From IMG/VR virus record IMGVR_UViG_3300003859_000001, positions 1-48,534 of that record: a DNA stretch of 48,534 nucleotides; one strand, 5' to 3'. The DNA is from a virus. This document shows, piece by piece, positions 7,747 through 34,074 of the stretch; the first letter of the stretch is position 1; each line of letters opens with the position of its first letter. Position numbers and translations under genes: made by a program. The notes beneath the pieces are model-generated. The model worked only from the letters and a program-made list of their open reading frames with translations. It had not been told where the DNA came from and ran no database searches.

Positions 7747-7787
7747 TCAGGCTATGGGCTGGCTCTTTTTTGCTCATAATTGGAGCC

Positions 7788-7830: not shown

Positions 7831-7837
7831 ATAGGTC

Positions 7838-7857
7838 ACTCGCTTGAAAGGACGAGT
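7838..7857 (+). promoter_or_regulatory. 5'-terminal leader hairpin with SD in the loop
   Basis: ACTCG (7838-7842) pairs with CGAGT (7853-7857) around the loop CTTGAAAGGA, identical to the loop at 6880-6889. The predicted transcript start is at its base. The linear distance from SD to ATG is 13 bases, longer than usual, so folding may matter for translation. Confidence 0.6.
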
Positions 7858-7865
7858 AAAAACCG

Positions 7866-9240: not shown

Positions 9241-9244
9241 TACA

Positions 9245-9496: not shown

Positions 9497-9498
9497 TC

Positions 9499-9726
9499 AT
9501 GGCTGATCAGACAAGGGATAGAATCTCCTCAGTGCATATCGATGGTTATACTAGAACCATAACGTTCTTTTATCACCACAAACCAGCTGTAAGATTTAAT
9601 AAGCCAACCTATGCAACCCTTAACCGCTTGGTTGATCTAACCTGGAGAGGTAATCATAAGGTGGCTTATCTTGCACCATCAACAACCTGCATCCTAAATA
9701 CTAAAGATGGATTGAAGTTTATATAA
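9499..9726 (+). CDS. Hypothetical protein, 75 aa
   Basis: The start is taken at ATG 9499 because GGAGG lies 6 bases upstream. A TTG at 9493 is also in frame. Beta-rich with basic residues. Last gene of the early operon, followed by a strong terminator. Unknown function. Confidence 0.6.
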   Translation: MADQTRDRISSVHIDGYTRTITFFYHHKPAVRFNKPTYATLNRLVDLTWRGNHKVAYLAPSTTCILNTKDGLKFI

Positions 9727-9765
9727 TATCTTCCGGCTGATCAGCTGCACCGACCACCAACACTT

Positions 9766-9798
9766 GAGCCCTGGACCATAACCAGGGCTCTTCTGTTT
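9766..9798 (+). terminator. Rho-independent terminator of the early operon
   Basis: GAGCCCTGG (9766-9774) pairs with CCAGGGCTC (9782-9790) around a seven-base loop, followed by TTCTGTTT. It separates the early genes from the packaging and structural region. Confidence 0.85.
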
Positions 9799-9848
9799 GA
9801 TCAGGATAAACCAAGATAATCTATAAAAACATTGTTACCACGAATTGA

Positions 9849-9872
9849 GCAGCTGTTATTTCACACAGCTGC
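9849..9872. repeat. Inverted repeat in the early/late intergenic region
   Basis: GCAGCTGT and ACAGCTGC form an eight-bp stem with an eight-base loop. It lies between the terminator and the possible late promoter and has no T-tract. It may be an operator for a late regulator or part of a packaging site. The rest of 9727-9979 (253 bases) holds no gene I can support. Confidence 0.5.
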
Positions 9873-9903
9873 GAAACGAGTGGCGGATCATCGATACAGC
9901 CAG

Positions 9904-9933
9904 ATGATAACGATAATCTACCAGGGGTATAAT
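9904..9933 (+). promoter_or_regulatory. Candidate late promoter
   Basis: Perfect TATAAT at 9928-9933 with a weak -35 (ATGATA, four of six matches, 18-base spacer). Lies about 45 bases before the first gene of the packaging module. The GATGTWACATC operator is absent, so control would differ from the early promoters. Confidence 0.4.
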
Positions 9934-9979
9934 CACCACTAAGAAAGGACAACCAACCAACCCCAAAGGTAATGACCTT

Positions 9980-10873
9980 ATGACTAACAGTAAAATAATC
10001 CCAACACTTGGTTACAATCACTTAGAGATTGGCGCACCTGGAAACATCCAGACACACCGGATTTGTGGAGCACGCACCAGGAACGAAGCAACGGTAAACG
10101 AACTATGCCAGCTGCCTGCTGGTTGGGGAACTGATCACCCAGGTGCCGGACGCTGTAAGCTTCATGGAGGGAGCCGTAACCCTGGAAGGTATAGCGAGTT
10201 ATGGCGTGGACGCATGGCACAGATAGCACGAGCAGCACTGGAGCAGGAAGTAGACAATGATCCGCTTGATCTCCTGGCTGAATTAGAGGTCCAACGTGTG
10301 TTACTTGCCACATTGATTGATCAGCTGCAGCCAGGTGCTGCTCTTCCGGCATTGATGGACCATGATCACCAGGACGATCAGCCAGCTGCGTACAAGATGA
10401 GCCGGACCGAGCAGGTAATAAGAGAAGAGATAGCACGCCCGCCTGTTACGTCACGGAACAAGAAGCGTATGTTAGCAAGTCAAGATAGTATGGGGGGTGA
10501 TGGTGGTGTAGTCAATAAGTCAAGTAAAGGTTCCTCGGTGGATATCCCGCCCACAGAATTTTTAACAAAAGTAAATCCAGATAATCTATCTGTAGTAATC
10601 GACAGTTTTGGTACGTTGAGTGGAGACGAGCGGGAGGCTGTATATTTGCAGTTAGTTGAGCAAGTGCGGATACAGGTGAATGATATTGTGACAACGGTGA
10701 GTAAGATTGTGAGCATGAGGAACCAGACGGCGATAACGAGGAGTGAGGTAGCGTATTTGGTGATGTTGTTGCGGGAGGGGATGGAGAGGTTTGTACCGAA
10801 GGAGAACAGGGAGCCGTATGTTAACTGGATATTGGAGAATATACCAGGGATGGGAGGTAAGGCAGATGGATGA
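9980..10873 (+). CDS. Possible terminase small subunit with HGG zinc motif
   Basis: The protein has 297 residues. Residues 28-64 contain CGARTR, a second Cys (43) and GRCKLHGG (C59, H62), a motif found in phage proteins encoded next to large terminases and often ending in an H-G-G box. The rest is acidic and helical, with a Gly-rich linker near residue 170. Position directly before terL makes a DNA-recognition role in packaging likely. The SD is weak (AAAGGTAATGACCTT). Base composition changes in the 3' third (see the C-poor block), so the C-terminus may have a different origin. No classical small-terminase helix-turn-helix is obvious. Confidence 0.55.
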   Translation: MTNSKIIPTLGYNHLEIGAPGNIQTHRICGARTRNEATVNELCQLPAGWGTDHPGAGRCKLHGGSRNPGRYSELWRGRMAQIARAALEQEVDNDPLDLLAELEVQRVLLATLIDQLQPGAALPALMDHDHQDDQPAAYKMSRTEQVIREEIARPPVTSRNKKRMLASQDSMGGDGGVVNKSSKGSSVDIPPTEFLTKVNPDNLSVVIDSFGTLSGDEREAVYLQLVEQVRIQVNDIVTTVSKIVSMRNQTAITRSEVAYLVMLLREGMERFVPKENREPYVNWILENIPGMGGKADG

Positions 10874-11078
10874 AGAAGAGGAAGATGATAATGAGTTTTT
10901 GTCATTTGAGTTATCGGAGGGGGGAGCGTTGACGATAGGGCAGTTGATTGATTTGATAGAGAGTACGGGGGAAATGTTTGAGGTGTTGGAGTATGCGTGT
11001 GACAGTAAGGTATGTAGGATGAGTGATGCGGGGATCAGGGATCATACGGTGGAGATCAGGTTATCGAGGAAGGGGTAA
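10866..11078 (+). CDS. Small acidic protein, 70 aa
   Basis: The ATG at 10866 overlaps the preceding stop and has GGGAGG upstream. The N-terminus is a run of Glu/Asp (DEEEEDDNE). The rest is helical with two cysteines. It belongs to the C-poor block. Function unknown. Its position suggests a packaging or head-completion helper. Confidence 0.65.
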   Translation: MDEEEEDDNEFLSFELSEGGALTIGQLIDLIESTGEMFEVLEYACDSKVCRMSDAGIRDHTVEIRLSRKG

Positions 11079-11087
11079 TAACGAGCA

Positions 11088-11110
11088 CTCCCCTGAGGGG
11101 GGCAGGGGAG
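11088..11110. repeat. G/C-rich hairpin upstream of terL
   Basis: CTCCCCTG (11088-11095) pairs with CAGGGGAG (11103-11110) around a loop of A and six G. There is no T-tract, so it is not a simple terminator. In the gap just before terL it is a candidate packaging (cos/pac) or RNA-processing site. Confidence 0.55.
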
Positions 11111-11188
11111 CGTCGGAAAGGAGATTACAACTACAGCATTAGATACTGGAGCCAGAGGATATTATAAGATGGTGGAGTAAAAAAGTAA

Positions 11189-12703
11189 ATGGGAAACGTA
11201 CAGTTTGTTAAGGGAAGTTTATTGTCATTGGATGGGGTAGTGCAGCTGGCGAACCAGTTGTATGACAAGACGATAGTAGGGAAGCCTATAGATACGATCA
11301 GGTTCAAGCCACAGCCGAAGCAGGAGAAGTTATTGGATGTGTGTGGTTTATTGGATTGGTATTATGGGGTAGGACCGATCCAGGAGCCAGTGTGTAGTTT
11401 GATAGGGTACGGGGGTGCTGCGTATGGGGCAAAGACTTATGGGGTATTGGGGTTATCAGCTGTAGCAGCGTATGCGTTTCCAGGGGTTCAGATAGCATTT
11501 TTTCGTAGGACGTATACGGAGATTGAGGGAGCGGGTGGGGCAATGCAGACAGCGTATGAGGTATTCAATGGGATAGCAGAGTCAAGGGATAGTGGTAGGA
11601 ACTTTGTATTTCCAAAGAACAGCCAGTTTTTCTTTCAGCACTGTGAGAATGAGGCTGATGTATACAAGTACGAGGGTAAGCAGTTTGATATTCTGTTGTT
11701 GGATGAGGCTACGCATTTGAGTTGGTTTATAGCGGATCGGTTATTGATCAGGAACAGGGTAAGTGGGGATAATGGGATATTGAAGCCATTTTGTATAATG
11801 ACAACGAACCCAGGGAATATTGGACATAACTGGTATATGCAGTTATTTGGGTTGGAGAACTTTACGCAATGGGATGAGAGGGATGAACCGATCCTGGTGA
11901 AGAACCCGAATGGTAGACCAGTGCAGACATATTTTATTCCGGCGTTTATGAAGGATAATGAGATTGGGATGAAGCGTGATCCAGAGTACCAGAAGAGGTT
12001 GGAGCAGGCTGATCCTGATTTAGCTGATGCGTTGATAAAGGGAGACTGGAGCGTATTCTCAGGGCAGGCTTTCAGGCAGTTCGATCCTGCGATCCATATC
12101 TGTGAGCCGTTTGATTTGCCGAAACATTTTCCCAGGTGGAGGGCAGTAGATTGGGGAAGTGCGGAGCCGTTCTGTTGTTTGTGGTTTGCTCGTGATCCTG
12201 ATATTGGTAGGGTGTATGTGTATCGGGAAGTGTATATGGCAGGGTTGACGGACAGCCAGCAGGCGCAGTTGATTGTAGCCAACAGCCCGTTTGATGAGAA
12301 TATCAGTATCACGTTTGCTGATCCGAAGTCCTTTTGGGTGGCGAAGAACAGGTACGGGATAACGTATACGAGTGCTGATGAGTATAGGGATCAGGGGGTA
12401 TTGCTATGGGAAGCTGATAATGATAGAATATCAGGGAAGAAAAAGATAGACCAGTCGCTTACCCTTCTCCCCGATGGTAAGCCTGGACTTGTTATATTTC
12501 GTAATTGCGGGAACCTGATTAGAACGCTGCCGAGATTATCACGCAGCCTCGCTAATCCAGAAGATGTCGATAGTAGACAAGAGGACCACCCGTATGACAC
12601 ACTACGTTACGGTTTCACCAATCCGCTGATGTTCTCCAAAAGAGAGAAAAAAGAAAAGAAGGGGCAATCTGATAATCCCTGGATGCACATCGATGGACTA
12701 TAA
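11189..12703 (+). CDS. terL: Terminase large subunit
   Basis: The length of 504 residues is typical. The ATPase has a Walker A-like loop GGAAYGAKT (residues 75-83), Walker B LLLDEA (169-174) and the coupling motif MTTNPG (205-210). The RNase H-like nuclease follows, with Asp in AVDWG (about 321), an ADP motif (about 377-379) and YDTLRYGF near the end. TerL docks on the portal, pumps DNA into the prohead and cuts concatemers. The Walker A loop deviates from the usual G-G-K-S/T ending because Ala precedes the Lys. Up to about 12450 the gene uses mostly G-ending codons (TTG, AGG, GGG, ACG), then switches abruptly to the codon use of the neighbouring genes. The SD is weak (GGTGGAG, about 12 bases away). 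Confidence 0.92.
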   Translation: MGNVQFVKGSLLSLDGVVQLANQLYDKTIVGKPIDTIRFKPQPKQEKLLDVCGLLDWYYGVGPIQEPVCSLIGYGGAAYGAKTYGVLGLSAVAAYAFPGVQIAFFRRTYTEIEGAGGAMQTAYEVFNGIAESRDSGRNFVFPKNSQFFFQHCENEADVYKYEGKQFDILLLDEATHLSWFIADRLLIRNRVSGDNGILKPFCIMTTNPGNIGHNWYMQLFGLENFTQWDERDEPILVKNPNGRPVQTYFIPAFMKDNEIGMKRDPEYQKRLEQADPDLADALIKGDWSVFSGQAFRQFDPAIHICEPFDLPKHFPRWRAVDWGSAEPFCCLWFARDPDIGRVYVYREVYMAGLTDSQQAQLIVANSPFDENISITFADPKSFWVAKNRYGITYTSADEYRDQGVLLWEADNDRISGKKKIDQSLTLLPDGKPGLVIFRNCGNLIRTLPRLSRSLANPEDVDSRQEDHPYDTLRYGFTNPLMFSKREKKEKKGQSDNPWMHIDGL

Positions 12704-12747: not shown

Positions 12748-14529
12748 ATGGCAGATTATGATGTCAAGGCTTTCGAGAGCATTAAAGAACACGTAAGGGA
12801 TATGGAGACAGCTGATGTAAAGCGTAATGATCTGTATGCGAAGATGGATGCGCTCTACTGGATGGTCTGGAAAGAAGAGTCGGATGTCACGAAGCAGATG
12901 CGAAATGTTAAGGTGACACGCTCTCCACTGGCAAGGAACTCTATTATTGGGGCAATGAGGTTGTTGACTGCATCGGACCCTGTTATCGAGGTGCCGAAGG
13001 ATATCAATGATCCATTAGCGGTACAGGAGTCCTCGAAGCTAGAGAAGTGGATGAAAGCAACTTGGTTTGAGTCTGGCAGGGTTTCAGGCGATCCGTTGCA
13101 TTATGACATTTGTAGATCAGCTTTGTTATATTCAGAGGTGGTTATTGCGATCAACTCTACGAAGAGCATGGCTAAACTTTCCACCATTCCGGCAGTGAAA
13201 CGCAGGATGGAGGATATCGCAAGGAGAACACCTTATCTGTTTGAGGTTTGGTCGCCAAAGGGGTGTAATACGGAGAGAGATAACTTTGGTGTGATCGCTT
13301 TCCACAGGAAGATAGTTACGACTGCAGGACATATCGAGGATGTTTACGGTAAGGATGGGGAAGCTGCACTTATCTCGAATACGAATAAAAGGACATACAG
13401 CCGATCCGATCCTGTCACCTTGCATATTTATTATGATCTTCGTGATGTTTGTATTTATCTTGATGGGTGTGACAGGGAAGTGAAGTTTGAAGAGCATGGG
13501 TTGCCTTTCATACCGATTGTGTCACAGACGGTTGAAGGAAGTTCTTTATTCAAGGGAAGCGATTATCCTACCCAGGAACCATTTTTATATACGCTCGATC
13601 AGACCGAACTTGTAGAACGGCAGAACCTGATGCTTACCACGCTCTACACGATGTTCTTCTCTATTGGTTCAAACCCGATGTTTGTAGATTACACGATCAA
13701 TCCAGAGGATGCTCCTGTTGCAAACTTTGATGTGCCAGGAGGCGTTATTCACTACAGGGTTGGTGAGAGGCGAGAGCCGATGGCAAGGCAGGTGATCGAT
13801 CCTACGCTCATGCAAGGTTGGGAGATATCACAGGACCTGGAAGCACAGAGCACGATTTATAAGCAGACATTGGGAGAGCCACTTGGTTCCAATGCTCCTT
13901 ATTCGATGGTGGCTTTACTATCCCAAAGCGGTAGACTGCCACTTATAGCAGCACAGAGAAAGACAGGTTGTGCTATTGCAGAAGCACTGGAGATCGCAGC
14001 GAAATGGGCGAAGCATGACGGCGTAAACACAACGGCTAAATACCAGACGTTATCCGCAGAACTGAGCCCTGCTGATATTCCAGAAGATGTGAATGTGAAA
14101 GTATTCCTTGAGATCGAGATGCCAACGGATAAGCTACAGGCAGCCAATGCAGCGAATATGCTTGCACAAGGCGATAATCCACTGGTATCGAAAGAATGGG
14201 CGAGGCAGTCCGTTCTCAATATTGGTCAATCAGAGGATATGGATCGGGCTATCTGGAACGAGAAGGCAACCGAGATCATGTTCCAGCAATGGATGTACGA
14301 GCAGGCAGCGAAGCTTGCTCAAGCGAAACAGATGGCAATGGAGCCTGGAATGGCTTCTGGTATGCCAGGGATGCAGGGAGGTCAAGCTCCAATGGGTCCA
14401 CCGCCAATGATGCCTGGATCGCCACAGATGGGTACGCCTCCGCAACCGCCATCACCAGAGCAGGTTGAACCGGAAGAACCGATGATGCCAATGCCACCCA
14501 TACAACCACCGATGATGCCGAGAGGTTAA
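12748..14529 (+). CDS. Portal protein
   Basis: The protein has 593 residues and directly follows terL. The order of a helical N-terminus, a central alpha/beta region (residues ~150-330), a conserved-looking helical stem (~390-520) and a Pro/Met/Gly-rich flexible tail (~530-593) fits phage portals. Portals form the 12-subunit ring through which DNA enters and leaves, and which binds TerL and the neck. Identification rests on position, length and general architecture. CTGGAG upstream of the ATG serves as SD. The Pro/Met-rich tail is unusual and may be disordered. Confidence 0.75.
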   Translation: MADYDVKAFESIKEHVRDMETADVKRNDLYAKMDALYWMVWKEESDVTKQMRNVKVTRSPLARNSIIGAMRLLTASDPVIEVPKDINDPLAVQESSKLEKWMKATWFESGRVSGDPLHYDICRSALLYSEVVIAINSTKSMAKLSTIPAVKRRMEDIARRTPYLFEVWSPKGCNTERDNFGVIAFHRKIVTTAGHIEDVYGKDGEAALISNTNKRTYSRSDPVTLHIYYDLRDVCIYLDGCDREVKFEEHGLPFIPIVSQTVEGSSLFKGSDYPTQEPFLYTLDQTELVERQNLMLTTLYTMFFSIGSNPMFVDYTINPEDAPVANFDVPGGVIHYRVGERREPMARQVIDPTLMQGWEISQDLEAQSTIYKQTLGEPLGSNAPYSMVALLSQSGRLPLIAAQRKTGCAIAEALEIAAKWAKHDGVNTTAKYQTLSAELSPADIPEDVNVKVFLEIEMPTDKLQAANAANMLAQGDNPLVSKEWARQSVLNIGQSEDMDRAIWNEKATEIMFQQWMYEQAAKLAQAKQMAMEPGMASGMPGMQGGQAPMGPPPMMPGSPQMGTPPQPPSPEQVEPEEPMMPMPPIQPPMMPRG

Positions 14530-15717: not shown

Positions 15718-15849
15718 ATGCCATTCAAATCAAAAAAACAAATGCGGTACTTAGCCTGGAAGAAGCCCGAAGTATTCAAGAGGTGGAAAAGAAAGTACGG
15801 TATCCCGAAGAAGTTCAGGAAGAAGAGCAATGGCAGTAAAGGTAAGTAA
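15718..15849 (+). CDS. Small basic phage protein, 43 aa
   Basis: Starts one base after the preceding stop. The sequence (MPFKSKKQMRYLAWKKPE then KRWKRKYGIP) resembles a very short basic protein type found in many phages, beginning M-P-F-K-S and ending with W-x-x-x-Y-G. More than a third of the residues are Lys or Arg. It overlaps the start of the giant gene by 20 bases. Likely DNA- or head-associated, function unproven. Confidence 0.65.
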   Translation: MPFKSKKQMRYLAWKKPEVFKRWKRKYGIPKKFRKKSNGSKGK

Positions 15850-18800
15850 ATACAAGCGTCCTGTAGCTGTAAGACAACCTGTTGTCCAGAACGTGGTTGG
15901 ACCAGCACGCAGGCAACCGTTTAGGAATTACAGGAAACCCGCTCCAGCCATACCGGACGAGAGGCAGGAGGCGATACAAGAATATAAGGGCAGGGGGATA
16001 AAGCCAGTAAGGACAGCACCTAAACCGTCAACAATACCGCCTCCAGTATCAACACCCGCTCCGGTTCAGACAACTGCACCAGTCACAAGCCCTATGCCAG
16101 TACCTGCTGGACCAGGGGCTGTAGCTCCGTCTCCAGGTGAGGTTATCGGTCAGACTACGATACCTACCTCGACTATATCTGGTATTCCTATTCCACAGGT
16201 GCAGTCCAGTTATGGCTATGGTCCAGACCTTGTAGACTTTGTTCGTAAGATTACTGGTATCCAGATGATTGACACGCAGTCTGGAACCGAGATCAAGGGA
16301 TGGAAACCCAGGAAATCGGGTGATCCTATCGACTGGTATATGCCTGGATACAATGCGGAGAACAACCCATTTGAGTTCAACCCTGGATACGAGCCATCGT
16401 TTTGGGAGGACCCACGCAACGTTGCAATGATCTATCATGGCGCTATTGGATTGAACAATGTCCAGTGGGCTGATAAAGACTTCCTGCAGGCTGCCTATGA
16501 TTATTTCAAGTTAGCGAATGGTAATGACGACTGGACGAGTTGGAAGTTCCTTGCTTCAGGCGATCCGGCAAGACAGTTCCTGCAGTCTGGAGAACCACCT
16601 CCGCTCGATTATGTTCTGACACCAAAGCAGTATCAGAATTATCTACTCAATGCGCTCTATGCTACACCCATCGAAGAGCGTGACCCTGAACTGATATTGA
16701 GACTTACACCAGAATACAGGTTCGCACTTGACTATGAAAAATATGTGAAGATGCACCAGGAATGGGCGTTAGCGAATACACCCGACTGGATGGCATTAGC
16801 CAAGTCATTGACGACTGATCCGGCAATTACTGGTGCGTTACAGATGGGTGCTCTTGGTGCGTTTACTCTGAACCCGATGATCGCTTTATACATGGGTGGG
16901 TTTGGTTATTTGACAGGTGCAGCATCGAAGATCGAGGATCCCCTATTGCGTAACACTGCCAGTGGTGCAGCCCTGGGAGGTATGTTTGGTGGAGTATTAG
17001 GACCCTGGGGTATCGTAGGTGGAGCAGCTTTAGGCGGGTTGGCTGGTGGCGCTACTAACTTCTTATCCAGGGGTACAGAATGGGGTGGTGTCACAGGATG
17101 GAGCCTTGCTGATCAGGTGATGAAACTGATGGATATGCCAGCAGAGGGTATTGAAGCACTGATCGGCACTGGTATGCTTTTGAACTGGGCTAGTAAAGAA
17201 CCCAACCTGTATGGATCGCCAGAGGAGTTGTTGGGCGATCTTAGGTCCACGCTGCAGGCAGGCAGGTTGGCTTATACCGTAGGAGCAGTGCCAGATACCA
17301 CAGCACCATCAGGACGTAACTGGATAAACTTATTCCCTTATCTTGGTTACTTGTGGGCTTCTGCCACAGGAGACAAGGAAGAATTAGAGAAGATAAGGTT
17401 CGCAAAGCCTGGAGAGACGTTCAATCTTACAGGTGATAATCCGTTCCCTTATGCAGTGGGTGCAACTCAAGCAGCCATGATGAACGCAGCCAGGAAACGT
17501 ATTCTGGCAGGTGAGAACGTTGATCAGATATTACTTGAGTACCAGTACCTTTATGGACTATCGGGATTATCCGCAGAACTTATTGGACATATTGTGCTCG
17601 ATCCGCTGAATATAATGCCAAGAGCGGAATCAGCTGTGATACGTGGTGTCGGTCAAGCCACCGGACAACGTGCGATTGTAATGGGATGGTCTGGTAGACA
17701 GGGAATGGGTTTATTTGGTGGTTTGAAGAACTACAAGGCTCTCGTGGAAAGCGGTATGGTCGGTGTGTTCACTGAGCCATTGACGGCAATCGAGAAGAGT
17801 ATAGCTGGTTTGACAGGAAGCAATATCTCAAAGGCTCTCGATCCAGACTACAAGTACGTGAAGCTCAAGGGCGAAGGGAGTTCCCTGCAATTCGCTAATC
17901 CGATACTTCGTGCAGTAAACGATCTGATAAGTCTCACGCCAGAGTCAAAGGTGGAAGCTATTCATGTTCGTGGTATCGATGCTTACAATGGTTTGGCAGA
18001 TAGATTTAGGGGTGATGTAGACAAACTGTTGGATGCTGTTACTACGATTGGGCGTTCACCAGCAGAAGCTGCACTAAAATTCAGCACAGCTGCCTATGGC
18101 AGTCCGATAACTTATTCCCTGCAAAGGGCTATGAAGGCGTTTGTGCCATTATTGGAAGATGCAATACTAGATTATCACACAGGAGACACGGAGAGAACGC
18201 TGTTATTCAGGATCGCTGATGTGACTGGAGAAAAACCAGCTGATATTCTCAAGCGCATGGGTGATGAGAACGGAGTTCAGGGAGTGTTCGATCAGTTCGC
18301 AGTCAAGCTAACACAAAGCGATCATCCACTCGCTCCAGAGTTGTTGAGGACTATCAACACAGGAGAACTCAAGGTAGACGATTTTGCAAAGATAGGTGAG
18401 AAATTCATTGGGGATGATGCGATACCCTGGCACCCTGATGAACTCATGGTGAAGATGAGCGGTCAGTTCAACAAGAGCACAGCGGATTGGGCGATCAAAA
18501 CCTATGGTGCGAAGGAAACATCATTCGGTTTCAGGTTCGCCAACACGCTCAAGAAGGCTCAGTCGGCTTTGCTATTATCTTGGAACCCTGGATATTTCGT
18601 AAATAACACGGTCAATAACGCTGTCTCCCGTTGGGCTACACACATTTGGGGATACGCTACCAACCCGCACAGAGAGAAGTTCTATATGCGATTTGGGCGT
18701 AGGATGGCTCGTGAACGTGCAGGACTTGGGGCAGCTGCTACTGGTGTTGATATGGACTTCGTTGAAGGTCTAAAGCCAGGAGAAGCTGGAGCTAATATCG

Positions 18801-21800
18801 GCAAGCCAATGGGCGAGTTTATATCTCCAGAGGGCGAGAGAGAACTACGCAAGATTATCAACATGAATAAGGGTGCTCTTGGTCAGATAAACAGGGTACT
18901 AGATTTTGTCAATAAGCTTGGTCCGGCTACGACTGGCTCCCGTAAAGTAGAAGTATGGGAAAGTCAGAACGCTATGTACTTTGCAGCTAGACAGGCATGG
19001 CAAGCCTGGGAGAGTGGAAAACTGATCTCCCAATTACCACCCAACCTACGCAATGATATTATCCGCATGGTAGGTCCTGATGCTCCTGAGTGGTTCAGGA
19101 ACGTGCTACGCAACTCGATGAACCCCGATGAAGTTAATGCTGCACTCCTGGAGACGGCACCGAGATACGATGTGAACTCAGTCGTTGACAAGGTTGTTGC
19201 CGAAATGAATAAGGGTGTCACCGATCCGAAAAAGCTGATCAACTCAGATGCTGTGAGAGATACTCTTACCAGAGGACAGATACTTGATAACCTGAAAGCC
19301 GATCTTGAGGGAGTAACTACAGCTGCAGGTGTCAGGGATGCGTTTGCGAAGGCAAGGCAGACGATCAATGATCAAGCGGATCAGATGAACTTGAACGATC
19401 TGACTACCAGGGCAAATGAAGTTTGGGCTATGGTTGCCTCCAGCAAGTGGCTTGAACTGTTCAATATATCCAACGAAAAGAACCTGAAAGTATCAGAGTT
19501 TGAAGCGAACCATTATGTAGAGTTAGATGCTGTTCGAGCTAGAGACGATCAGATGCGTGTTGATGGTTACAGCGACAAGATGCTTTCACGTAATTGGGAT
19601 GAGGGGATGAACCAAGTCAATCGGGAGCGCCAACGTATTCGTAAATTCGAGTTGGCAGCTGATGATGGAATATACAAGGGGATGGGTCTTGGTGACGAAA
19701 AGGTAAATCTATACAACGATAAGGTCAGGGAGAGTTATACGCTTTGGGATAAGTTTTGGGAATATTCCAATAGGGAGAGACAGGCTTTCTTCAAGAAGCG
19801 CAAGGGTATGACCAGAGAAGAAAGTCAGGCAGCTTTCACTGAATGGCGTGATAAGACAAACAAGAAATACCAGCAGACCAAACGCCTTATTTATGGTTAT
19901 GAGACAAAGAACGCAGATGGAACTATCGTACACCGTCCAGGTGTAGTGGATAAAGCTAACAAGATATTCCTTGACGCAGTAAAGAACACATACGGCAAGG
20001 ACGCACACACAGTGGCAAAAGCATGGATCGAGGATACGGCTCGAATAAACCTTGAACTCGATGCCATGATGAAAGAGCAACGTGACTTGATAGATACCCT
20101 GCCACAGAACCAGAAGAGAAGGGAATGGCAGCTATTTCTGGACAACGAGTATCTTCCCAAGATGCGTGATCTTTATAACAACAACTCACAGAAGATGGTT
20201 GAGTTGTATACCAAAATAACCGGACAGAAACCGCCACCTCCACGAGAGGTTCCTGTCGTTGAGATTGGTAGAACACCGCCTCCAGGTGAACCTCCACCAC
20301 CTGGGGGTGGTCCTACACCGCCACCTGGGGGTGGACCAGTACCTACAGCACCTCCGGCACCAACGGGAGGTGGACAACCCGCTCCGACTGCACCTCCGGC
20401 ACCTACAGCACCACCAGCACCTACAACTGCACCAACACCAAAGCCAGCACCAGAAGCACCGAAGGTAGAGATAGACTACGAGCCTGCTCCACCACCGGAT
20501 ATTGAGTACGAGCCACAAGGACAGGCAGAGGGAGCACCGAGAAAATCTTCTGACGTTATCAGGGAAGATATCATCAAGACGACCAACGATATCGATCCTG
20601 AGTTCTTGCGTGGCAAGAAGATGGCAGAAGGCGTTCAGCTAACAAGGGAGGCAGCTGGTGTACAAAGCAATATCATCAAGCGCATAAACAACGCTGGTGG
20701 CATAACAGGTGTGAGTACCTTCAAAGACCTTATTGCGAATTGGGATACGGTCAAACCTGAGTACGAGCGTATCATGCGTACTCGTGCGGAGAACAAAAAG
20801 AAGGCTGCAGTTGCCAGGGAGAAGGCTCCTGCCTTCGCTCTAAAAGACCTGCCAATAGCCAGACGACTGGATTATGTCGAGGATGTTTCCTTGATGGTGA
20901 AGGCTGTTGGGAATATTTCTGCACCAGGGAAGCGTGGGATACTGATCGAAACACCAGAAGGAATTACAGCAGTATCTTCCGGCTATCCGCAGTGGTGGGG
21001 AAAGTATGGTTGGGGAAGTGCTGAATACTTCAAGATGGAGGGTGGCAAGAGGGTCAAGGTTACTGGTATAGAAGCATTTGAGCGAGCAACAACTGACCTG
21101 ATAAGGAATGGCACAGAGACACTCAAGCCCAATGGGGAGCCTTATGCCATATTCAACAGGCTACGCCATACGATTGAAGATTACGGATCGGTAAAACTAT
21201 ATACCGATGCAGAAGTTAGACCATCTGATAAGAACGCAGATTACCATCCGATTTACAGGAAATCATCTGAGGCAGCCATTGCACAGAGGGATGAGTACAA
21301 CCAGCCATTGGTTGACTTCTACAAGGCAGGTGAATTGTGGAAGGCAGGCAATCAGGATGATGCAGCGAGGCTGATCGAAGAAGTCCTAGACGCACAGCCA
21401 GAAATACTTGGCAGGCTGAACGATGCTGATATGGCTGAAATATTTGGAAGTGTCGATGAGGCAGGTAAGGCTTTCAACCATGAGACACAACAGGTTGCTA
21501 AAGATGCTGGAATTGTTGTTGATGTTGGTAATCTCGAAGGAAAACCATTAACTCTTGATGAATACTTGGCAAGCGATATCAGAAGGACAAGAGAGAGTTC
21601 TGTATTATCTGATGTCGAAAGCGCAGTAAATAGACTTGGCAGAGACAAACTGGAACAGATCGGTTTTATTAAAGCTGGAGAAACTATTCAACAATGGTTG
21701 AAGAGGGAAGCACAACAGACGGCGACCTGGGAAAGAGGTGTTGGTAAGGCTCGTAACCGCAGAGTAGGACAGACTGCAATAGAGAAATGGAGCAAACCAC

Positions 21801-24800
21801 TCGATATATTCAAGGATGCCGTTGGAGAAAAAGCACTGAGGAAATCAGTGTTGGAATATATACGGGGGGATAAAAACGGCTGGCTTCTGAAAGGCGAGGG
21901 ATTTGACAATCCAGAAATACATACTCCAGCAAAGTATGAGCAGATGAAAGTTACAACTCCAGAAGTCGCAGATGCACTCAAGGCAGCCAACGAAGAGATA
22001 GCCACTCTAAAGGCAGAAGTAGAACGCAGGGTACAGATGGCAGGCTACGATAAACTCACTGGATTGCCTATATACAGCGAACATCCAAGAGCAGCAATAG
22101 CAGGCGGTTTTGCCTTTATAGATATGGCAGGATTGAAGTATCTAAATGATCAACACGGTCATGCAGCTGGTGATGCACTTCTGTTTGCGGTAGCAGACAT
22201 TGCCCGTAAAAATAATATTCCGATATACAGGGTCGGCACATCTGGTGATGAGTTTGTGATTGCAGTCGAATCGCCCGATATCGCTGCCACTTATGCGTCA
22301 TTCTTGAATAGAGAATTGAAACAATCGCCCGTTCTGGTACAGAAACCAGACGGAAGCTACACCATGATCTATGGTTATGGAATTAGATATGGAATTGGAG
22401 ATACTTATGCTAAAGCAGATCACTCCCAAAACATTGTCAGAACAGAGTTCTACGCCAACCACCCCGAAACCCAAAGATACCTCGCAGACCATCCAGGCGA
22501 CATCTCCGGTGCCATCACGGTTGCGCGATCCTCGCTATTCCCTGGGTCTAAGGTCGTGGACATCCCTGCCGGAAGGATCGAAGGTGATTGGGTATCTCCC
22601 GCGAGACAGCAAAGCGTATCAGAACTTGATGCAGCTAATCAAGGACCAGAACGAGAATACAGGATCGCAGTTGCCAGAGCAGAATACCGAGACAGGTTCC
22701 AAGAGTACGTCAGAACCCAAACCGATCCAGACCAACCAACCCCCTACTCAGGAGAACTCGAACCAGCCCCCGAACAACCAAGAGAAATAAATCCAGGTCC
22801 ACTGTACGATTACCTGAAAGATAAGCCAGGGTTCGTGCAGGAGGATATGGAACGCACCCTGAATAACGCCTTAGAAAGCAGGCTACTCGTATTGAAGGGT
22901 GATGATCCACTACGTTGGGAAGCCTACCAGGAGTTAGCCAGACAATCCGGTTGGGAACTGGATGATTACGAGTTGGGTGCGGATACGGGTGTTTCGAGCG
23001 GGAGGATAAGACGACTTCCAGAAGCAGCCATTGGTGCTGGTAATCTCACAAAAGTAGGTGATATTGCTGGTGATAAATTCCGTGTTTTCTTTTTTGATAG
23101 GCAGGTAGGTAGCGAGTCATACGTCAACCGCCAGGTGTTGGAAAAACTAGACCCAAATAAGAAAAACTGGAGGACTGTTGGCAATCGGATAGAAAAGACT
23201 GCCAACGTAGAACGCATAGAGGATGCTAATGGAAATGTGATATTTAGCAGAGAAGGCAAACCTGGAAAAACGTTAGTTGAAGTATTTACAGATGTTGGCT
23301 TAGAGAACGAGTTGAACCCAATTCAGATGCCATTGGCAGAAGATATTGTGCCTGTGAATAAGATATACACTGGACAAGCGAGTATGTTTTCTGAAAATGC
23401 TTATATCCAGATCGCAGGCTTTAGGCACCCACTAGACACGATTGTTACTATCGATGGTAGGCGAGGGAAGATTACTGGCACAGATGTAGTCGATAAACAA
23501 AGACTTTACAACATCGAGTACGAGGATACTCCAGGCTTTACATCACAGGTTGGCGAGAAGATTGTCGATGCAGCAATGGAATCTGATGCAGTGACAAAGA
23601 TACTCAGGCTCGGCTATGCGATCAGACCAAACGAAATGGATATGATCATCAACGATGAAAAGATCGTTGAGATCGTCTACAAGGTTGGAACAGATGAGGA
23701 GATAGCATACCGTCCTGATTGGAGTAAGGACCCAACTTCTAATGGCAATTACCTGCTAGGGTTTGATCCGCATACTCACGATATTGTTTATATAACTAGC
23801 AGCGGAAAGGTAAAGACAACCAAGACGATTGGTGGTGCTTCACAGGATATCTTCTACCTGAACGGCAGGAAGTATATATTTGTTGAGAGCACATCTGATG
23901 GTGGTGCATTAGCCAAGACTACATCCGGCGTGAATATATCGCTTTCTAAAGAACAGATGGATAAGGCTACAAGAGAAGTACCTGTTCCTCCCGCTCCGGT
24001 TATACCCCCGAAAGGTCCATCAGGCGAAGAACTAGCACCAATGCCTAAGATGCGTAGACTTGAGAATATTCGCCAAGATACGATATGGATACTCGAAGGT
24101 AAAACAAAGTTTGAGGAGTATAAGCCAAAGTCAAGGGAAGCACTTAAAAAATATGTTGATGCAGCTATAAAAGCAGTCGATGAAGGAACGGGAACACCTG
24201 AATATTTGGATTTCTGGCGACCACTCGTAGAGAATTATAAAAGGCAACAGGCAGAACCAGCTGCAGCGGAAGTAGTACCTCCAGCTGCAGGTGGTGCAGG
24301 AGCGGAAGAACCACCTCCACCCCCACCAACCAATATCATTGGAGAGGAACCAGAACCACCTCCACCATTGGGTGGCTCGAATGAAATAGTCGGAGACATT
24401 CCACCAGGGGTAGTGAGTAATATCAACCCTGTGGAGTTCCGTTCTGAGTTGGAAGGCGATCTGTGGAAGAAGTCAACTGAGCCGATGGTAAACGCAATGG
24501 AAGAAAGGCTCACTACAGATGGTCCAACAGAAGGATACAAGATACCAGGAGAATTAATGCCGGAAGTGAATAAGTATCTCAGGCAGGTTTACGGAGATAT
24601 GGAAACGGCAAAAGCATACACAACAGCCTACGCAAACTCGATGCGAGATTATGCGCTCCTGAATTACTCAATGCGTAGGGGCATCGATAATTGGGCGAAT
24701 ATCGTTTATCCATACCAGTTCTGGTACACGCGTACCGCCATGAATTGGGCTATGCGTGCGTTTGACCGTCCAGCTTGGTATGCCAATTATTATCGGTTCC

Positions 24801-26470
24801 GCAAGTTCATGCAGGCAAATAGAGAGGAATATGGTTTCCCATCCAGGCTAAGAAATAAAGTCGGTATCCAGGCACCCTATCTTCCAGACTGGACAAGCGA
24901 CAGGTTCTATACCGATCCACTGAATAACATCTTCCCATTCGAGAACTTTATTACACCGATGGCAGAGTACCAGAGGATGGTAAACGAGAACGAGAGAGAA
25001 GCCGAATATCTCTTGAAGTCCTGGGCTGATGATGGAACGATAACAGATGCAGAGGCAGCTACTGCAGCAAGCTCACATGAGGGCGATCTGTGGAGACAAG
25101 CGACTGAGAGTGTAAAAGCAGAACAGGACTGGTCGCCTCTTGGCTTCATGGATTGGGTGATGTCGCCTGCACTGTATCTCACAATACCCTGGTATCTGGT
25201 TACTGGTAAGACCATGCCAGGTGTATCAGGTGGTGGATCAAGACCTGATATGCCTTTACTTCCACTCACAAGGACTGGCAATGCGATCAAGGCAATCACA
25301 GAGGATAGCCCGCTAGGATCGATTGGTAACTTTGTCGGTACCCTAATGGCAGCACCGGAGAAAACATTCCGAAAGGCTGTAGGGATGAGTGAGTTTGGCG
25401 ATTGGGGTAATTATTATATTGACCGTATGATCTCCAATATGGTTGGCGAAGGATACTGCAGCTTGAGAGACGCAGAACTAGCCATGATAGAGCGTACTGG
25501 TCCAGTCTATGCAGAAGCCGTCAAGCGCACGATGCTTGAGGGCTCGTTCAAAGTACCAGGGGCAATACCTGCTTATGCAGCACTTCACGGCGCAAAGGCA
25601 GAAGAAATGGCATCGGCAGTATTGTTTGGATTTGCACCTGCCAGTTTACTGCCGGCTGCAGAACTCGATGCAAGGCAACTGAAAGACGAATACAATTCAG
25701 CCAGGGATGCTTACAACAAGGGCGATACTGGGGCAATGGATCGGTTCTTTGACGATTATCCTGAATACGAAGCAAGATCCGCGCTATTCTTGGAGCCGGA
25801 ACAACGTCTCAGGCAGTTTATGATCTCAGATATTTGGGAAGCCTGGGGAGATATGGGTAACGTAGAGAAGGAACAGACTGCCATGAGTTTAGGCAGTGAG
25901 TTTGAAGAGTTCTTCCTCGAGGATCAGACCAGGAACTATGATATGGTCAAAGACGAAACGCTTGCGTTCTGGCTACATGAAATGCAGCAGTATGTACCGA
26001 GTACGGTCACTCCAGAGGAAGGTCAGACTTATGAAGATTTCCCGAATGTGCCACCACAGATGCAAGCGGAGGTAGACGCATATAACAAGACACGCAATGC
26101 GAACTTCCCGAACTGGTACGCACTGCAGCAGAACTATTATTCGCTTCCGGCTGGAGAAGAGCGCAAGAACTTTGTCAAGCAATTCCCCGTTTTAGAGGAG
26201 TATTGGGATTGGAACAAAGCATACAAGGAATCACATCCGAATATTGCTAAGTATCAGACCGAGTACGATGCACCGAGGTACGACTATACTTTCATGCAGG
26301 AGTTTACCGATCCACTATATAAATCATTGTTTAGGTATTATGTGAACGAAACACCCTTATCAGCCGGAGCACTAAACGAACTGAATAGGTTATGGATCAA
26401 AAGCGGTAAGCAAGGCGAAACACTAGAAGGCTTTATAAACGAAGTTATAAGACCTTTACTAGCACCATAA
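15830..26470 (+). CDS. Giant multidomain virion-associated protein with a GGDEF-like domain
   Basis: This single 3,546-residue frame takes 22% of the genome and sits between portal and scaffold, where minor head (MuF-type) proteins are usually encoded. Visible modules: basic N-terminus shared with the 320-aa neighbour; Pro-rich linker (~63-105); Gly-rich hydrophobic stretch (~327-414) that could insert in a membrane; a helical region with SWNPGYFVNNTVNNAVSRW (~918-936); charged helices (~1200-1460); long Pro/Ala/Gly linker (~1467-1564); an unassigned region; a coiled coil leading into a GGDEF-like domain (2073-~2200); small beta domains (~2530-2570); a second Pro-rich linker (~2720-2860); and an aromatic helical C-terminus (~2940-3546). 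The cyclase-like domain has DKLTGL (2074-2079), FIDMAGLKYLND (2096-2107), a GHAAGD motif and SGDEF (2138-2142). The architecture fits an internal, DNA-co-ejected polyvalent protein. Function is inference. Confidence 0.8.
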   Translation: MAVKVSKYKRPVAVRQPVVQNVVGPARRQPFRNYRKPAPAIPDERQEAIQEYKGRGIKPVRTAPKPSTIPPPVSTPAPVQTTAPVTSPMPVPAGPGAVAPSPGEVIGQTTIPTSTISGIPIPQVQSSYGYGPDLVDFVRKITGIQMIDTQSGTEIKGWKPRKSGDPIDWYMPGYNAENNPFEFNPGYEPSFWEDPRNVAMIYHGAIGLNNVQWADKDFLQAAYDYFKLANGNDDWTSWKFLASGDPARQFLQSGEPPPLDYVLTPKQYQNYLLNALYATPIEERDPELILRLTPEYRFALDYEKYVKMHQEWALANTPDWMALAKSLTTDPAITGALQMGALGAFTLNPMIALYMGGFGYLTGAASKIEDPLLRNTASGAALGGMFGGVLGPWGIVGGAALGGLAGGATNFLSRGTEWGGVTGWSLADQVMKLMDMPAEGIEALIGTGMLLNWASKEPNLYGSPEELLGDLRSTLQAGRLAYTVGAVPDTTAPSGRNWINLFPYLGYLWASATGDKEELEKIRFAKPGETFNLTGDNPFPYAVGATQAAMMNAARKRILAGENVDQILLEYQYLYGLSGLSAELIGHIVLDPLNIMPRAESAVIRGVGQATGQRAIVMGWSGRQGMGLFGGLKNYKALVESGMVGVFTEPLTAIEKSIAGLTGSNISKALDPDYKYVKLKGEGSSLQFANPILRAVNDLISLTPESKVEAIHVRGIDAYNGLADRFRGDVDKLLDAVTTIGRSPAEAALKFSTAAYGSPITYSLQRAMKAFVPLLEDAILDYHTGDTERTLLFRIADVTGEKPADILKRMGDENGVQGVFDQFAVKLTQSDHPLAPELLRTINTGELKVDDFAKIGEKFIGDDAIPWHPDELMVKMSGQFNKSTADWAIKTYGAKETSFGFRFANTLKKAQSALLLSWNPGYFVNNTVNNAVSRWATHIWGYATNPHREKFYMRFGRRMARERAGLGAAATGVDMDFVEGLKPGEAGANIGKPMGEFISPEGERELRKIINMNKGALGQINRVLDFVNKLGPATTGSRKVEVWESQNAMYFAARQAWQAWESGKLISQLPPNLRNDIIRMVGPDAPEWFRNVLRNSMNPDEVNAALLETAPRYDVNSVVDKVVAEMNKGVTDPKKLINSDAVRDTLTRGQILDNLKADLEGVTTAAGVRDAFAKARQTINDQADQMNLNDLTTRANEVWAMVASSKWLELFNISNEKNLKVSEFEANHYVELDAVRARDDQMRVDGYSDKMLSRNWDEGMNQVNRERQRIRKFELAADDGIYKGMGLGDEKVNLYNDKVRESYTLWDKFWEYSNRERQAFFKKRKGMTREESQAAFTEWRDKTNKKYQQTKRLIYGYETKNADGTIVHRPGVVDKANKIFLDAVKNTYGKDAHTVAKAWIEDTARINLELDAMMKEQRDLIDTLPQNQKRREWQLFLDNEYLPKMRDLYNNNSQKMVELYTKITGQKPPPPREVPVVEIGRTPPPGEPPPPGGGPTPPPGGGPVPTAPPAPTGGGQPAPTAPPAPTAPPAPTTAPTPKPAPEAPKVEIDYEPAPPPDIEYEPQGQAEGAPRKSSDVIREDIIKTTNDIDPEFLRGKKMAEGVQLTREAAGVQSNIIKRINNAGGITGVSTFKDLIANWDTVKPEYERIMRTRAENKKKAAVAREKAPAFALKDLPIARRLDYVEDVSLMVKAVGNISAPGKRGILIETPEGITAVSSGYPQWWGKYGWGSAEYFKMEGGKRVKVTGIEAFERATTDLIRNGTETLKPNGEPYAIFNRLRHTIEDYGSVKLYTDAEVRPSDKNADYHPIYRKSSEAAIAQRDEYNQPLVDFYKAGELWKAGNQDDAARLIEEVLDAQPEILGRLNDADMAEIFGSVDEAGKAFNHETQQVAKDAGIVVDVGNLEGKPLTLDEYLASDIRRTRESSVLSDVESAVNRLGRDKLEQIGFIKAGETIQQWLKREAQQTATWERGVGKARNRRVGQTAIEKWSKPLDIFKDAVGEKALRKSVLEYIRGDKNGWLLKGEGFDNPEIHTPAKYEQMKVTTPEVADALKAANEEIATLKAEVERRVQMAGYDKLTGLPIYSEHPRAAIAGGFAFIDMAGLKYLNDQHGHAAGDALLFAVADIARKNNIPIYRVGTSGDEFVIAVESPDIAATYASFLNRELKQSPVLVQKPDGSYTMIYGYGIRYGIGDTYAKADHSQNIVRTEFYANHPETQRYLADHPGDISGAITVARSSLFPGSKVVDIPAGRIEGDWVSPARQQSVSELDAANQGPEREYRIAVARAEYRDRFQEYVRTQTDPDQPTPYSGELEPAPEQPREINPGPLYDYLKDKPGFVQEDMERTLNNALESRLLVLKGDDPLRWEAYQELARQSGWELDDYELGADTGVSSGRIRRLPEAAIGAGNLTKVGDIAGDKFRVFFFDRQVGSESYVNRQVLEKLDPNKKNWRTVGNRIEKTANVERIEDANGNVIFSREGKPGKTLVEVFTDVGLENELNPIQMPLAEDIVPVNKIYTGQASMFSENAYIQIAGFRHPLDTIVTIDGRRGKITGTDVVDKQRLYNIEYEDTPGFTSQVGEKIVDAAMESDAVTKILRLGYAIRPNEMDMIINDEKIVEIVYKVGTDEEIAYRPDWSKDPTSNGNYLLGFDPHTHDIVYITSSGKVKTTKTIGGASQDIFYLNGRKYIFVESTSDGGALAKTTSGVNISLSKEQMDKATREVPVPPAPVIPPKGPSGEELAPMPKMRRLENIRQDTIWILEGKTKFEEYKPKSREALKKYVDAAIKAVDEGTGTPEYLDFWRPLVENYKRQQAEPAAAEVVPPAAGGAGAEEPPPPPPTNIIGEEPEPPPPLGGSNEIVGDIPPGVVSNINPVEFRSELEGDLWKKSTEPMVNAMEERLTTDGPTEGYKIPGELMPEVNKYLRQVYGDMETAKAYTTAYANSMRDYALLNYSMRRGIDNWANIVYPYQFWYTRTAMNWAMRAFDRPAWYANYYRFRKFMQANREEYGFPSRLRNKVGIQAPYLPDWTSDRFYTDPLNNIFPFENFITPMAEYQRMVNENEREAEYLLKSWADDGTITDAEAATAASSHEGDLWRQATESVKAEQDWSPLGFMDWVMSPALYLTIPWYLVTGKTMPGVSGGGSRPDMPLLPLTRTGNAIKAITEDSPLGSIGNFVGTLMAAPEKTFRKAVGMSEFGDWGNYYIDRMISNMVGEGYCSLRDAELAMIERTGPVYAEAVKRTMLEGSFKVPGAIPAYAALHGAKAEEMASAVLFGFAPASLLPAAELDARQLKDEYNSARDAYNKGDTGAMDRFFDDYPEYEARSALFLEPEQRLRQFMISDIWEAWGDMGNVEKEQTAMSLGSEFEEFFLEDQTRNYDMVKDETLAFWLHEMQQYVPSTVTPEEGQTYEDFPNVPPQMQAEVDAYNKTRNANFPNWYALQQNYYSLPAGEERKNFVKQFPVLEEYWDWNKAYKESHPNIAKYQTEYDAPRYDYTFMQEFTDPLYKSLFRYYVNETPLSAGALNELNRLWIKSGKQGETLEGFINEVIRPLLAP

Positions 26471-27232: not shown

Positions 27233-28225
27233 ATGGCTTACACTTTAGCGCAACACGCAAAGTTAGAAGCCAATCCACTAACGAAGTTCGTCCTGGTCAA
27301 TATGTTGCGATACATAAAGGTCATGGAGATACTTCCTTTTCAGAACGTAAACTCTCTCCGCACATCTGCACTTCGATGGCGTGTACTACCTGGAGTAGCC
27401 TTCCGTGATCTGAACAGCGATTACACGGAAGATACATCGGGTGATCTTGAGGAAGTTTGGGAGTCTCTGTATATTCTTGGTGGGTTGGTTAAGTTTGATC
27501 GTGTACTTGAAGATGGTGGTGCCACCATCAAAGACCCCAAGCAATTGCAAATGGAAATGAAGTTGAAGTCGTTGGCATTAACCTGGAACGACTACTATAT
27601 CAACGGCGATCTTGCCACAGACCCTCTTGGTTTCCAGGGTTTGAAGAAACGCATTTCACTAAGTCCAACACGTCAGAAGATATCTGCAGGAAACTCAGAT
27701 TCTGTAGGTCTGAACGTAACGAACTCAGCTGCAAATGTCAACCTCTTCTGGACCAAGATGGAGCAGGCATATCGCTACACAAACACCGGACAGGTCGATG
27801 GTATCTTCTGCAATGAAGATATGCTCCTGGGTTTTGGTCGTTCACTCCGCTATATCAACTCGGCGGGTGGTAACTTCTTGGATGTTACTAAAGATAGCTT
27901 TGATCGTGCAGTCCTGAACTACCAGGGAACTCCCATTATTGATATGGGTTTGAAGAAAGATCAGACTACTGAAATCATGGCGAATGAAGCCGATGGTGCA
28001 GGTTCAGCTGCTGTCGCAGTATCCATTTACTTCGCTGCTTTCAACATGGAGCAAGGTATCGTGGGTGTCCAGAAAGGACCCCTGCAGGTGATACCAGATG
28101 CCAAGAAGGATGTTGCCACTGCAAGCCAGACGCTGATCGAATGGGTGAATGGATTGGCAGGTTTCGGTTCTTATGGTTTAGCACGCTTGTGGAATATTCT
28201 TCCACCTGCCTCGTGGACTTCATAG
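27233..28225 (+). CDS. Major capsid protein
   Basis: The length of 330 residues is typical for a HK97-fold capsid protein without a large delta domain. The N-terminal helix, the long E-loop-like strand segment (about 60-100: DLNSDYTEDTSGDLEEVWES) and the mixed alpha/beta remainder fit the fold. Position after a scaffold-like gene and the strong SD (AGGAG) support the call. No sequence motif is decisive, so the assignment is mainly contextual. Confidence 0.8.
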   Translation: MAYTLAQHAKLEANPLTKFVLVNMLRYIKVMEILPFQNVNSLRTSALRWRVLPGVAFRDLNSDYTEDTSGDLEEVWESLYILGGLVKFDRVLEDGGATIKDPKQLQMEMKLKSLALTWNDYYINGDLATDPLGFQGLKKRISLSPTRQKISAGNSDSVGLNVTNSAANVNLFWTKMEQAYRYTNTGQVDGIFCNEDMLLGFGRSLRYINSAGGNFLDVTKDSFDRAVLNYQGTPIIDMGLKKDQTTEIMANEADGAGSAAVAVSIYFAAFNMEQGIVGVQKGPLQVIPDAKKDVATASQTLIEWVNGLAGFGSYGLARLWNILPPASWTS

Positions 28226-32865: not shown

Positions 32866-34074
32866 ATGACACTTGAGATCAATATCTCACGAGGTAGTTC
32901 TACGCTACGCTCCCCAAAGATAACACCTGGACCAACTGGTACCAGACAGTTTGTGCTGTTCCAGGGTTATCAGATGTGGCAATCATCAGCTACCTGCAAG
33001 GCTTACATCGATACCATGCTTTCGACTTTAGCAGGGTATATCACAGATATTGTTCCTCTCGTCATTCAGTATTACGTAGCGCAATACCAACTGTGGGGTG
33101 CTTCTACTTTGGCTCACTACACTTCCGTAACGATAGAAGGTCATACTCCGCTTGGTTATTGCATAGAACAGGCACACGCAAGAGGTATCAAGGTACACGC
33201 TTGGTTTGTGTTTATGTACTCAGATGCCTGGTGCGGATCGTATAGTTTCTTACTAAGTCCACAACCGGATACGACAAGTTATAGGACTGCAGACGACATA
33301 ATCCTTTACAGTGTAGCATCTACCAGGACAAAGATGGCAAACTGTCTGGCAGACTTCTATGATCAGAACCCAGGTCTTGATGGTATCTATCTGGACTACA
33401 TCAGGACAAATGCGAATGTTGAACAGAACGCTGCAGATATCACCACGCTCGTGCAGCTTATCAGGAATACAGTCGATCCTGCTTGTACGATAGGTTTCTT
33501 TTCGCTGGCAAACCCGCAAGCACTTATATCAAACAAACAGGATGGTGCTACCTGGACACAGAACGGTTATGTGGATATGACTTTCTCGATGGCTTATGAA
33601 TACAATTGGGGCAGACGCATGGAGTATCTGGTCGATCTTCTTTCAAAGCCTTACTATGTTGGTCTATCACCTGACGAGGCAGAAACTTCTCAATCTGGAT
33701 TTAGGGCTCGTATGTGGGCTGCTAAAAACAGGGGTTATCCCGATCTCGGACATTTTCAATATTCGTCCACAGGAATATATCCTGGCTCAAATGCTTTGAC
33801 TGCACTAAAGGATTATGTAGATAATAAAGATGGTCCAACGATGGGGAACATAACAAGACTATCCATGAACTGGACTACTGGAGGTTCCCTATCTTTTACG
33901 ATAGATGGTGTTACGAGAACGATCAGCTATGCTACTGGTTCTGGTTTTACTAATAACAGGGAATGGAAAGATTATGTGGAAGGATTGTACGGACAATTGC
34001 CATATCTATTTTTCAATCCTATCGACACTACCATCTGTAGAATGATGTATGGAGATGAATGGAATAGTTTCTAA
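32866..34074 (+). CDS. TIM-barrel glycoside-hydrolase-like protein
   Basis: The protein has 402 residues. Two segments are typical of the GHL10/DUF4015-like hydrolase barrels: HARGIKVHAWFVF (about residue 104-116) and LDGIYLDYIRT (about 171-181), where the Asp residues lie at the end of barrel strands. The last ~80 residues form a small beta domain. No signal peptide is seen, so it is not secreted by the usual path and may be a virion-bound enzyme, such as a depolymerase that clears host surface glycans. It lies just before two LamG-like domains, which bind carbohydrates. Catalysis is inferred. Confidence 0.7.
   Translation: MTLEINISRGSSTLRSPKITPGPTGTRQFVLFQGYQMWQSSATCKAYIDTMLSTLAGYITDIVPLVIQYYVAQYQLWGASTLAHYTSVTIEGHTPLGYCIEQAHARGIKVHAWFVFMYSDAWCGSYSFLLSPQPDTTSYRTADDIILYSVASTRTKMANCLADFYDQNPGLDGIYLDYIRTNANVEQNAADITTLVQLIRNTVDPACTIGFFSLANPQALISNKQDGATWTQNGYVDMTFSMAYEYNWGRRMEYLVDLLSKPYYVGLSPDEAETSQSGFRARMWAAKNRGYPDLGHFQYSSTGIYPGSNALTALKDYVDNKDGPTMGNITRLSMNWTTGGSLSFTIDGVTRTISYATGSGFTNNREWKDYVEGLYGQLPYLFFNPIDTTICRMMYGDEWNSF

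Follow-up and report, generated by a model that had tools for sequence, protein, structure and literature searches.

The locus described here raises the question of why a phage should carry a domain of the diguanylate cyclase type inside a giant protein encoded among its head genes. The window, by which we mean the whole stretch of DNA analysed (48,534 nucleotides; IMG/VR virus record IMGVR_UViG_3300003859_000001), contains an open reading frame for a polyvalent protein of 3,546 amino acids (15830..26470, + strand, as are all the parts of this protein named below), which was called from the ORF scan and from homologous ends in relatives, and which runs uninterrupted over 3,546 codons. The initial annotation had placed this gene in the head locus, and its + strand neighbours bear this out: the terminase large subunit (TerL; 11189..12703; phrog_979, E=2.4e-31) is encoded upstream and the major head protein (27233..28225; phrog_212, E=1.9e-38) downstream. 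A portal candidate (12748..14529, + strand), named from size and position only and without a family match, corresponds in position to UOF79209.1 of the circular phage MW202608. Indeed, position comparison showed the same gene order in that phage, from terminase and portal candidate through the giant gene to the major head protein.

Elsewhere in the window, positions 397-1374 and 7866-9020, 5' of the packaging genes, encode a ParB-like partition/nuclease protein and a DUF932 protein. Among the tail-region genes, 32866-34074 gave a weak glycosyl hydrolase-like match to GHL10 (E=7.4e-5, below the cut-off). A GH25 lysozyme-type endolysin is encoded at 45775-46488 (E=2.2e-28) and a RecT recombinase at 47733-48533 (E=2.3e-43).

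Family membership and predicted fold of the domain

The GGDEF domain spans residues 2073-2207 of the giant protein (22046..22450). A cyclase-type palm had been proposed here from the motif order DKLTGL, FIDMAGLKYLND, GHAAGD, Arg, SGDEF and AKAD, beginning at residue 2073 (base 22046), and all of these motifs were found in that frame and place. The profile search that had been suggested as a check gave a clear match: with a curated cut-off of 23.8 bits, PF00990 scored 38.5 bits (E=1.3e-9) when residues 2030-2260 were searched and 32 bits when the entire protein was. The score for the NCBIfam diguanylate cyclase domain TIGR00254 stays below its curated cut-off (28.8 versus 37.4 bits), and we therefore regard the domain as a divergent member of the family. 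All the same, phmmer matches of the domain in the PDB were GGDEF cyclases, and a profile built from 42 relatives found GGDEF structures there with a best E-value of 1.9e-44.

Structure prediction was in agreement. AlphaFold2, given the window domain and 41 relatives, returned a palm fold (mean pLDDT 88.6, pTM 0.76) in which a long helix and a short helix are followed by a beta-alpha-alpha-beta-hairpin-beta-alpha arrangement. The top Foldseek matches in the PDB were all GGDEF domains, the best being 4yme, 7a7e, 6ttr and PleD (2v0n), with E-values of about 1e-8 to 1e-7 and TM scores of 0.5-0.6, and the viral models matched were phage GGDEF proteins. With a profile score well over the cut-off and a confidently modelled palm, a chance match was rejected. 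The coiled coil that had been described in front of the domain stands in part: the model has a long helix at residues ~2044-2070 (21959..22039; positions 10-36 of 191), which is probably a coiled coil. Membership of the GGDEF family is thus well supported and, on sequence and model together, residues ~2073-2207 are a GGDEF palm domain that is divergent but largely intact.

The putative active site and the sister domains

The motifs of the putative active site lie at residues 2074-2079 (DKLTGL; 22049-22066), 2096-2107 (FIDMAGLKYLND; 22115-22150), 2110-2115 (GHAAGD; 22157-22174), 2133-2142 (YRVGTSGDEF, the active hairpin; 22226-22255) and 2187-2197 (YGIGDTYAKAD; 22388-22420). In the stretch from FIDMAGLKYLND to GHAAGD (22115..22174), alignment A2 identified D2098 as the metal Asp and N2106 and D2115 as putative guanine contacts; in the hairpin it identified D2140 (metal) and E2141, the putative general base. 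We take D327, N335 and D344 of PleD, plus two acidic loop residues, to be the equivalents. The residues by which active cyclases are recognised, namely the metal Asp, an Asp/Glu-Glu pair in the loop and the guanine-site Asn and Asp, are all present and, since D2098, N2106, D2115, D2140 and E2141 are kept, catalysis would be possible. Loss of the metal-binding residues in relatives, which had been named as evidence against a cyclase, was not seen: relatives carrying the domain keep the metal Asp and the loop Asp-Glu. The loop D and E are conserved in 15/15 giant-protein homologues, and only they provide independent evidence of conservation, since the pattern used to collect the relatives fixed the metal Asp and the guanine-site Asn and Asp and left the loop residues outside.

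The domain therefore resembles the canonical cyclases PleD (2v0n/1w25), WspR (3bre), DgcB (6ttr) and YfiN/TpbB (7a7e) in its palm, metal Asp, guanine-site Asn/Asp, loop Asp-Glu and front helix. In other respects it differs from them, and it has no cellular sensor domain. A Ser does precede GDEF, as had been pointed out (and as in L068, L090, L091, L060 and L066), but it is not a simple replacement of the first Gly of an exact GG[DE]EF loop of normal length: the loop, canonically R-x-[GS]-GDEF, here reads R-VGTS-GDEF and has two extra residues, a length found also in L153. An RxxD inhibitory site (I-site) was sought before the loop and none was found. The distal AKAD segment is present, with R2204 where the family has a conserved Lys (a conservative change, found also in L075 and L056) and, at the next position, Tyr where PleD-type enzymes have Arg, such that the phosphate-binding Lys and Arg of the last helix are replaced by Arg and Tyr. 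Finally, the helix before strand 1 is shortened. The spacing from DxLT to strand 1 is 22, compared with typically about 33 in cellular-type GGDEFs and 22-27 in other giant-protein domains where measurable, and the 'NR' that follows LTGLP reads 'IY'.

Taken at face value, the loop that is longer than in characterised cyclases, the changes from Lys to Arg and from Arg to Tyr, the short spacing and the 'IY' would count against catalysis. They are what might be expected of a catalytically dead domain that binds GTP or a cyclic dinucleotide as a sensor or sponge, or that only guides protein contacts; the degenerate GGDEF domains of FimX and of many GGDEF-EAL proteins have such non-catalytic roles. 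Sister domains also lend themselves to this explanation, since parts of the ND/GH/GD motifs have decayed in L165, L139, L185, L186 and L195, so that some sisters may lack activity or recognise different bases. However, the metal Asp and the loop Asp-Glu persist in every aligned giant-protein homologue, including those with decayed base-binding motifs; a dead sponge would have no need of the general base, and there is no I-site by which it might bind product. We consider a dead domain possible but not the likely answer. For the sisters, decay of the base-binding motifs with retention of the acidic residues suggests that some lineages use altered bases or have lost part of the function.

A further possibility concerns the product: instead of c-di-GMP, the bacterial messenger made by enzymes of this fold, it might be cGAMP, for example, or a dinucleotide of mixed or linear type. 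The Arg that stacks on the base across the cyclase dimer is 94% conserved (PMC6456294); if LTGLPNR is aligned with LTGLPIY, this position would be Tyr in the window domain, as it is in the Hypr GGDEF cGAMP synthase GacA (PMC6456294). In L185 (~980-1150 aa of the giant frame) and L195 (584-752 aa), Asn replaces the Asp of the GD motif that recognises guanine. The GH motif is also altered there, the metal Asp and the DEF loop are kept, and a shifted base specificity is possible in these two sister domains. In contrast to GacA, the window domain keeps Asp (D2115), not Ser, at the base-selective position; the change from Ser to Asp there makes GacA purely diguanylate-producing (PMC6456294), and c-di-GMP would be predicted. 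Moreover, the register of the Tyr is uncertain because of the shortened helix. A different product is therefore quite unlikely in our estimation.

Scaffolds, cargo and relatives of the giant protein

What surrounds the domain bears on how it might be used. The N-terminal part of the protein is a conserved scaffold (residues ~175-1496; 16352..20317), which BLASTP aligned from end to end with L003, the closest full-length relative, and piecewise with many others. Composition scans delimited two proline-rich linkers, at residues 1469-1570 (20234..20539) and 2828-2850 (24311..24379). Between them lies a variable region (residues ~1571-2827; 20540..24310) with little homology, apart from a piece of ~115 residues around 1684-1798 still common to the window protein and L003. 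The mostly helical C-terminal scaffold (residues 2851-3546; 24380..26467) is 45% identical to L003 over 714 columns. Identity to L003 is 25% in the N-part (~175-1496), 45% in the C-part (~2851-3546) and 84% in the capsid protein. The L003 giant protein, of 2,301 aa, has no GGDEF domain. The C-terminal scaffold was modelled as helical (AlphaFold2 pLDDT 76.9), and a fold search against the PDB gave no match and hence no link to known ejection proteins; likewise, sequence searches matched the scaffold to no Pfam family and to no ejected giant virion protein.

Neither the domain nor the C-terminal scaffold gave matches when scanned as a single sequence against viral contigs, and relatives were found with a C-terminal scaffold alignment of three and then 13 rows. 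The scaffold ends are common to at least 80 viral contigs (the best 80 of 100 relatives). In L008, an otherwise close relative, the giant gene appears as two overlapping frames (826-4530 and 4418-11908), which reflects either a real split or a sequencing frameshift. The scaffold was also matched in five genome contigs, all of them from Chloroflexota/Anaerolineae MAGs, and these could be phage contigs binned with their host. Chloroflexota are thus the likely hosts of this family, and the window virus is probably a Chloroflexota phage. Four candidate-host MAGs were searched and gave 4-43 GGDEF matches each, with PilZ matches in three, so that a host c-di-GMP network would exist to be disturbed. 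An Rfam scan of the whole window found no c-di-GMP riboswitch and no other curated RNA. The GGDEF domains of L165, a viral contig, and L139, an Anaerolineales MAG contig, are 63% identical, a possible direct phage-host link.

In every relative with both ends present, a middle of ~140 to more than 2,000 aa separates the scaffolds. The GGDEF stretch is the part of the window's middle region most widely common to relatives, and the only cargo domain recognised there by Pfam. PF00990 was found in 6/82 other viral family records (L153, L165, L185, L186, L195 and L198), a lower bound since many records are fragments; L004, which has no part of the giant gene, was left out, and the L198 match falls beyond the locus analysed, within a 7,021-codon frame taken as the same giant gene. 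This frame, with its GGDEF at about 41901-42122 of an 86.7-kb virus record (G068), probably encodes the largest family protein seen. A profile built in this analysis added MAG contig L139; the domain is absent from L003 and L008. Since the closest full-length orthologue lacks it, GGDEF appears to be optional cargo rather than a core head function. Indeed, the same region of same-scaffold proteins carries ddrB-ParB, ART-PolyVal, Strawberry-notch/ResIII helicase, LPD1, LPD5 and RadC domains, in combinations such as ddrB-ParB, ART-PolyVal and GGDEF (L153) or GGDEF and helicase (L185/L186). GGDEF also occurs in giant proteins with other scaffolds, alongside LPD38 and PBECR5 (L068), LPD22 (L079) or ART-PolyVal (L090, L023), and some of these adjoin virion genes.

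A tree of 48 domains set the giant-protein GGDEFs mostly apart from cellular ones, with weak support (70/92), and grouped the window domain with L185 (93/88, both on long branches). The scaffold-family domains were scattered among those of other giant proteins, from which we conclude that the domain has probably been swapped between giant proteins more than once. No support was found for a single origin in the scaffold family: the tree needs three changes, at least two being required by strongly supported branches alone, with placements unsure owing to the long branches.

The tree also bears on whether the domain could be an artefact, such as a bacterial GGDEF joined to phage DNA during assembly or a motif matched by chance. 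Misfiled bacterial GGDEF genes do occur in phage collections. However, the frame is unbroken with homologous scaffold on both sides, the same domain type recurs in the six family records and the MAG contig, and the window domain clusters with giant-protein GGDEFs rather than cellular ones; we regard the chance of an artefact as negligible. Five tblastn matches from phage collections (OR845286.1, MT836939.1, MT838099.1, MT839200.1 and AGRM01000002.1) were discarded because they look like bacterial GGDEF/EAL genes, as judged from the ORFs in three and the record types in the others.

A proposed role at entry

GGDEF has been named as one effector domain of the polyvalent proteins of phages and conjugative elements, for example in the Acetonema longum prophage protein WP_004096050.1, with a proposed role in interference with host nucleotide responses or in activation against rivals (Iyer et al, 2017; PMC5512222). 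Domains of the ddrB-ParB, ART-PolyVal, helicase, LPD and RadC types are typical of this class (PMC5512222). That the window ORF is a polyvalent protein in this sense is well supported: it is giant and multidomain, it lies in the virion and packaging block between TerL and the major head protein, and its family carries exchangeable, unrelated effectors, GGDEF included, in one polypeptide. It differs from the published examples in its Chloroflexota phage lineage, its non-Pfam scaffold, GGDEF as sole recognised cargo and the longer loop, WP_004096050.1 being compared by description only. The stand-alone GGDEFs of Bacillus phage SP-15, Bacillus phage G (Gp350) and Bordetella phage CN1 have the fold in common with it, but are small separate proteins rather than cargo in a giant virion-locus protein. 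The presence of GGDEF in polyvalent phage proteins is thus already published; new here are the phage lineage and scaffold, the finding that the domain recurs among the cargo, and the short-helix subtype kept in giant proteins. No experimental study of GGDEF in polyvalent phage proteins was found in the open-access literature.

These results are best explained, with a probability of about 60%, by a tailed phage with a packaged polyvalent protein that delivers its GGDEF cargo and makes c-di-GMP or a close dinucleotide early. An injected effector is favoured because same-scaffold proteins carry known polyvalent effector domains. The steps that we infer, from packaging and ejection through dimerisation and catalysis to product and benefit, would run as follows. 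The conserved N- and C-terminal scaffolds probably direct the giant protein into the head and out through the tail, while the proline-rich linkers would tether the variable middle with its exchangeable effectors. Several copies would most likely enter the cell with the DNA. There, the helix before the palm could pair two GGDEF domains, and, early in infection, the pair could join two GTP molecules to form c-di-GMP or a similar dinucleotide, with synthesis unrestrained since there is no product-inhibition site. The outcome may be a shift in host c-di-GMP signalling or a disturbance of nucleotide-based defence.

Alternatively, the protein might be a late structural or assembly component that is never ejected, with a GGDEF that is passive bulk in the capsid or whose activity, if any, is confined to the producing cell. 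Its place in the late head and packaging block would suit such a role, and ejection is itself deduced for a scaffold that has no solved homologue. Exchange of the middle for domains of injected polyvalent proteins (ART-PolyVal, ddrB-ParB and helicase) fits poorly with structural filler, however, and there is precedent for a giant ejected virion protein in the N4 vRNAP, of ~3,500 residues (PMC12633501). By analogy, the window protein is similar in size and may likewise be an internal virion protein with a nucleotidyl-transferring domain; it differs in carrying another enzyme, and its scaffold has no sequence or fold match to N4 vRNAP. We think a non-ejected protein unlikely, and prefer a small unregulated cyclase delivered at entry.

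A bolder form of this delivery model is that a working, unregulated second-messenger synthase, injected with the DNA, defeats nucleotide-based immunity at entry. It might, speculatively, refill or fake the cyclic-dinucleotide pool watched by guard systems, of which Panoptes (PMC12657218) is an example, with base selectivity tuned by lineage through the Asn for Asp in sisters and the Tyr at the cross-dimer position. So specific a role seems improbable.

A cyclase delivered at entry would matter for how phages meet host nucleotide signalling. That phages break down or sequester the signal nucleotides of their hosts is known. For phage enzymes that would make such nucleotides upon entry there are only predictions from sequence (Iyer et al, 2017; PMC5512222). 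A single scaffold family with and without GGDEF supplies paired variants with which the question of an injected cyclic-dinucleotide synthase could be tested, in a set comprising seven GGDEF-bearing viral records, including the window, and about 15 other giant proteins.
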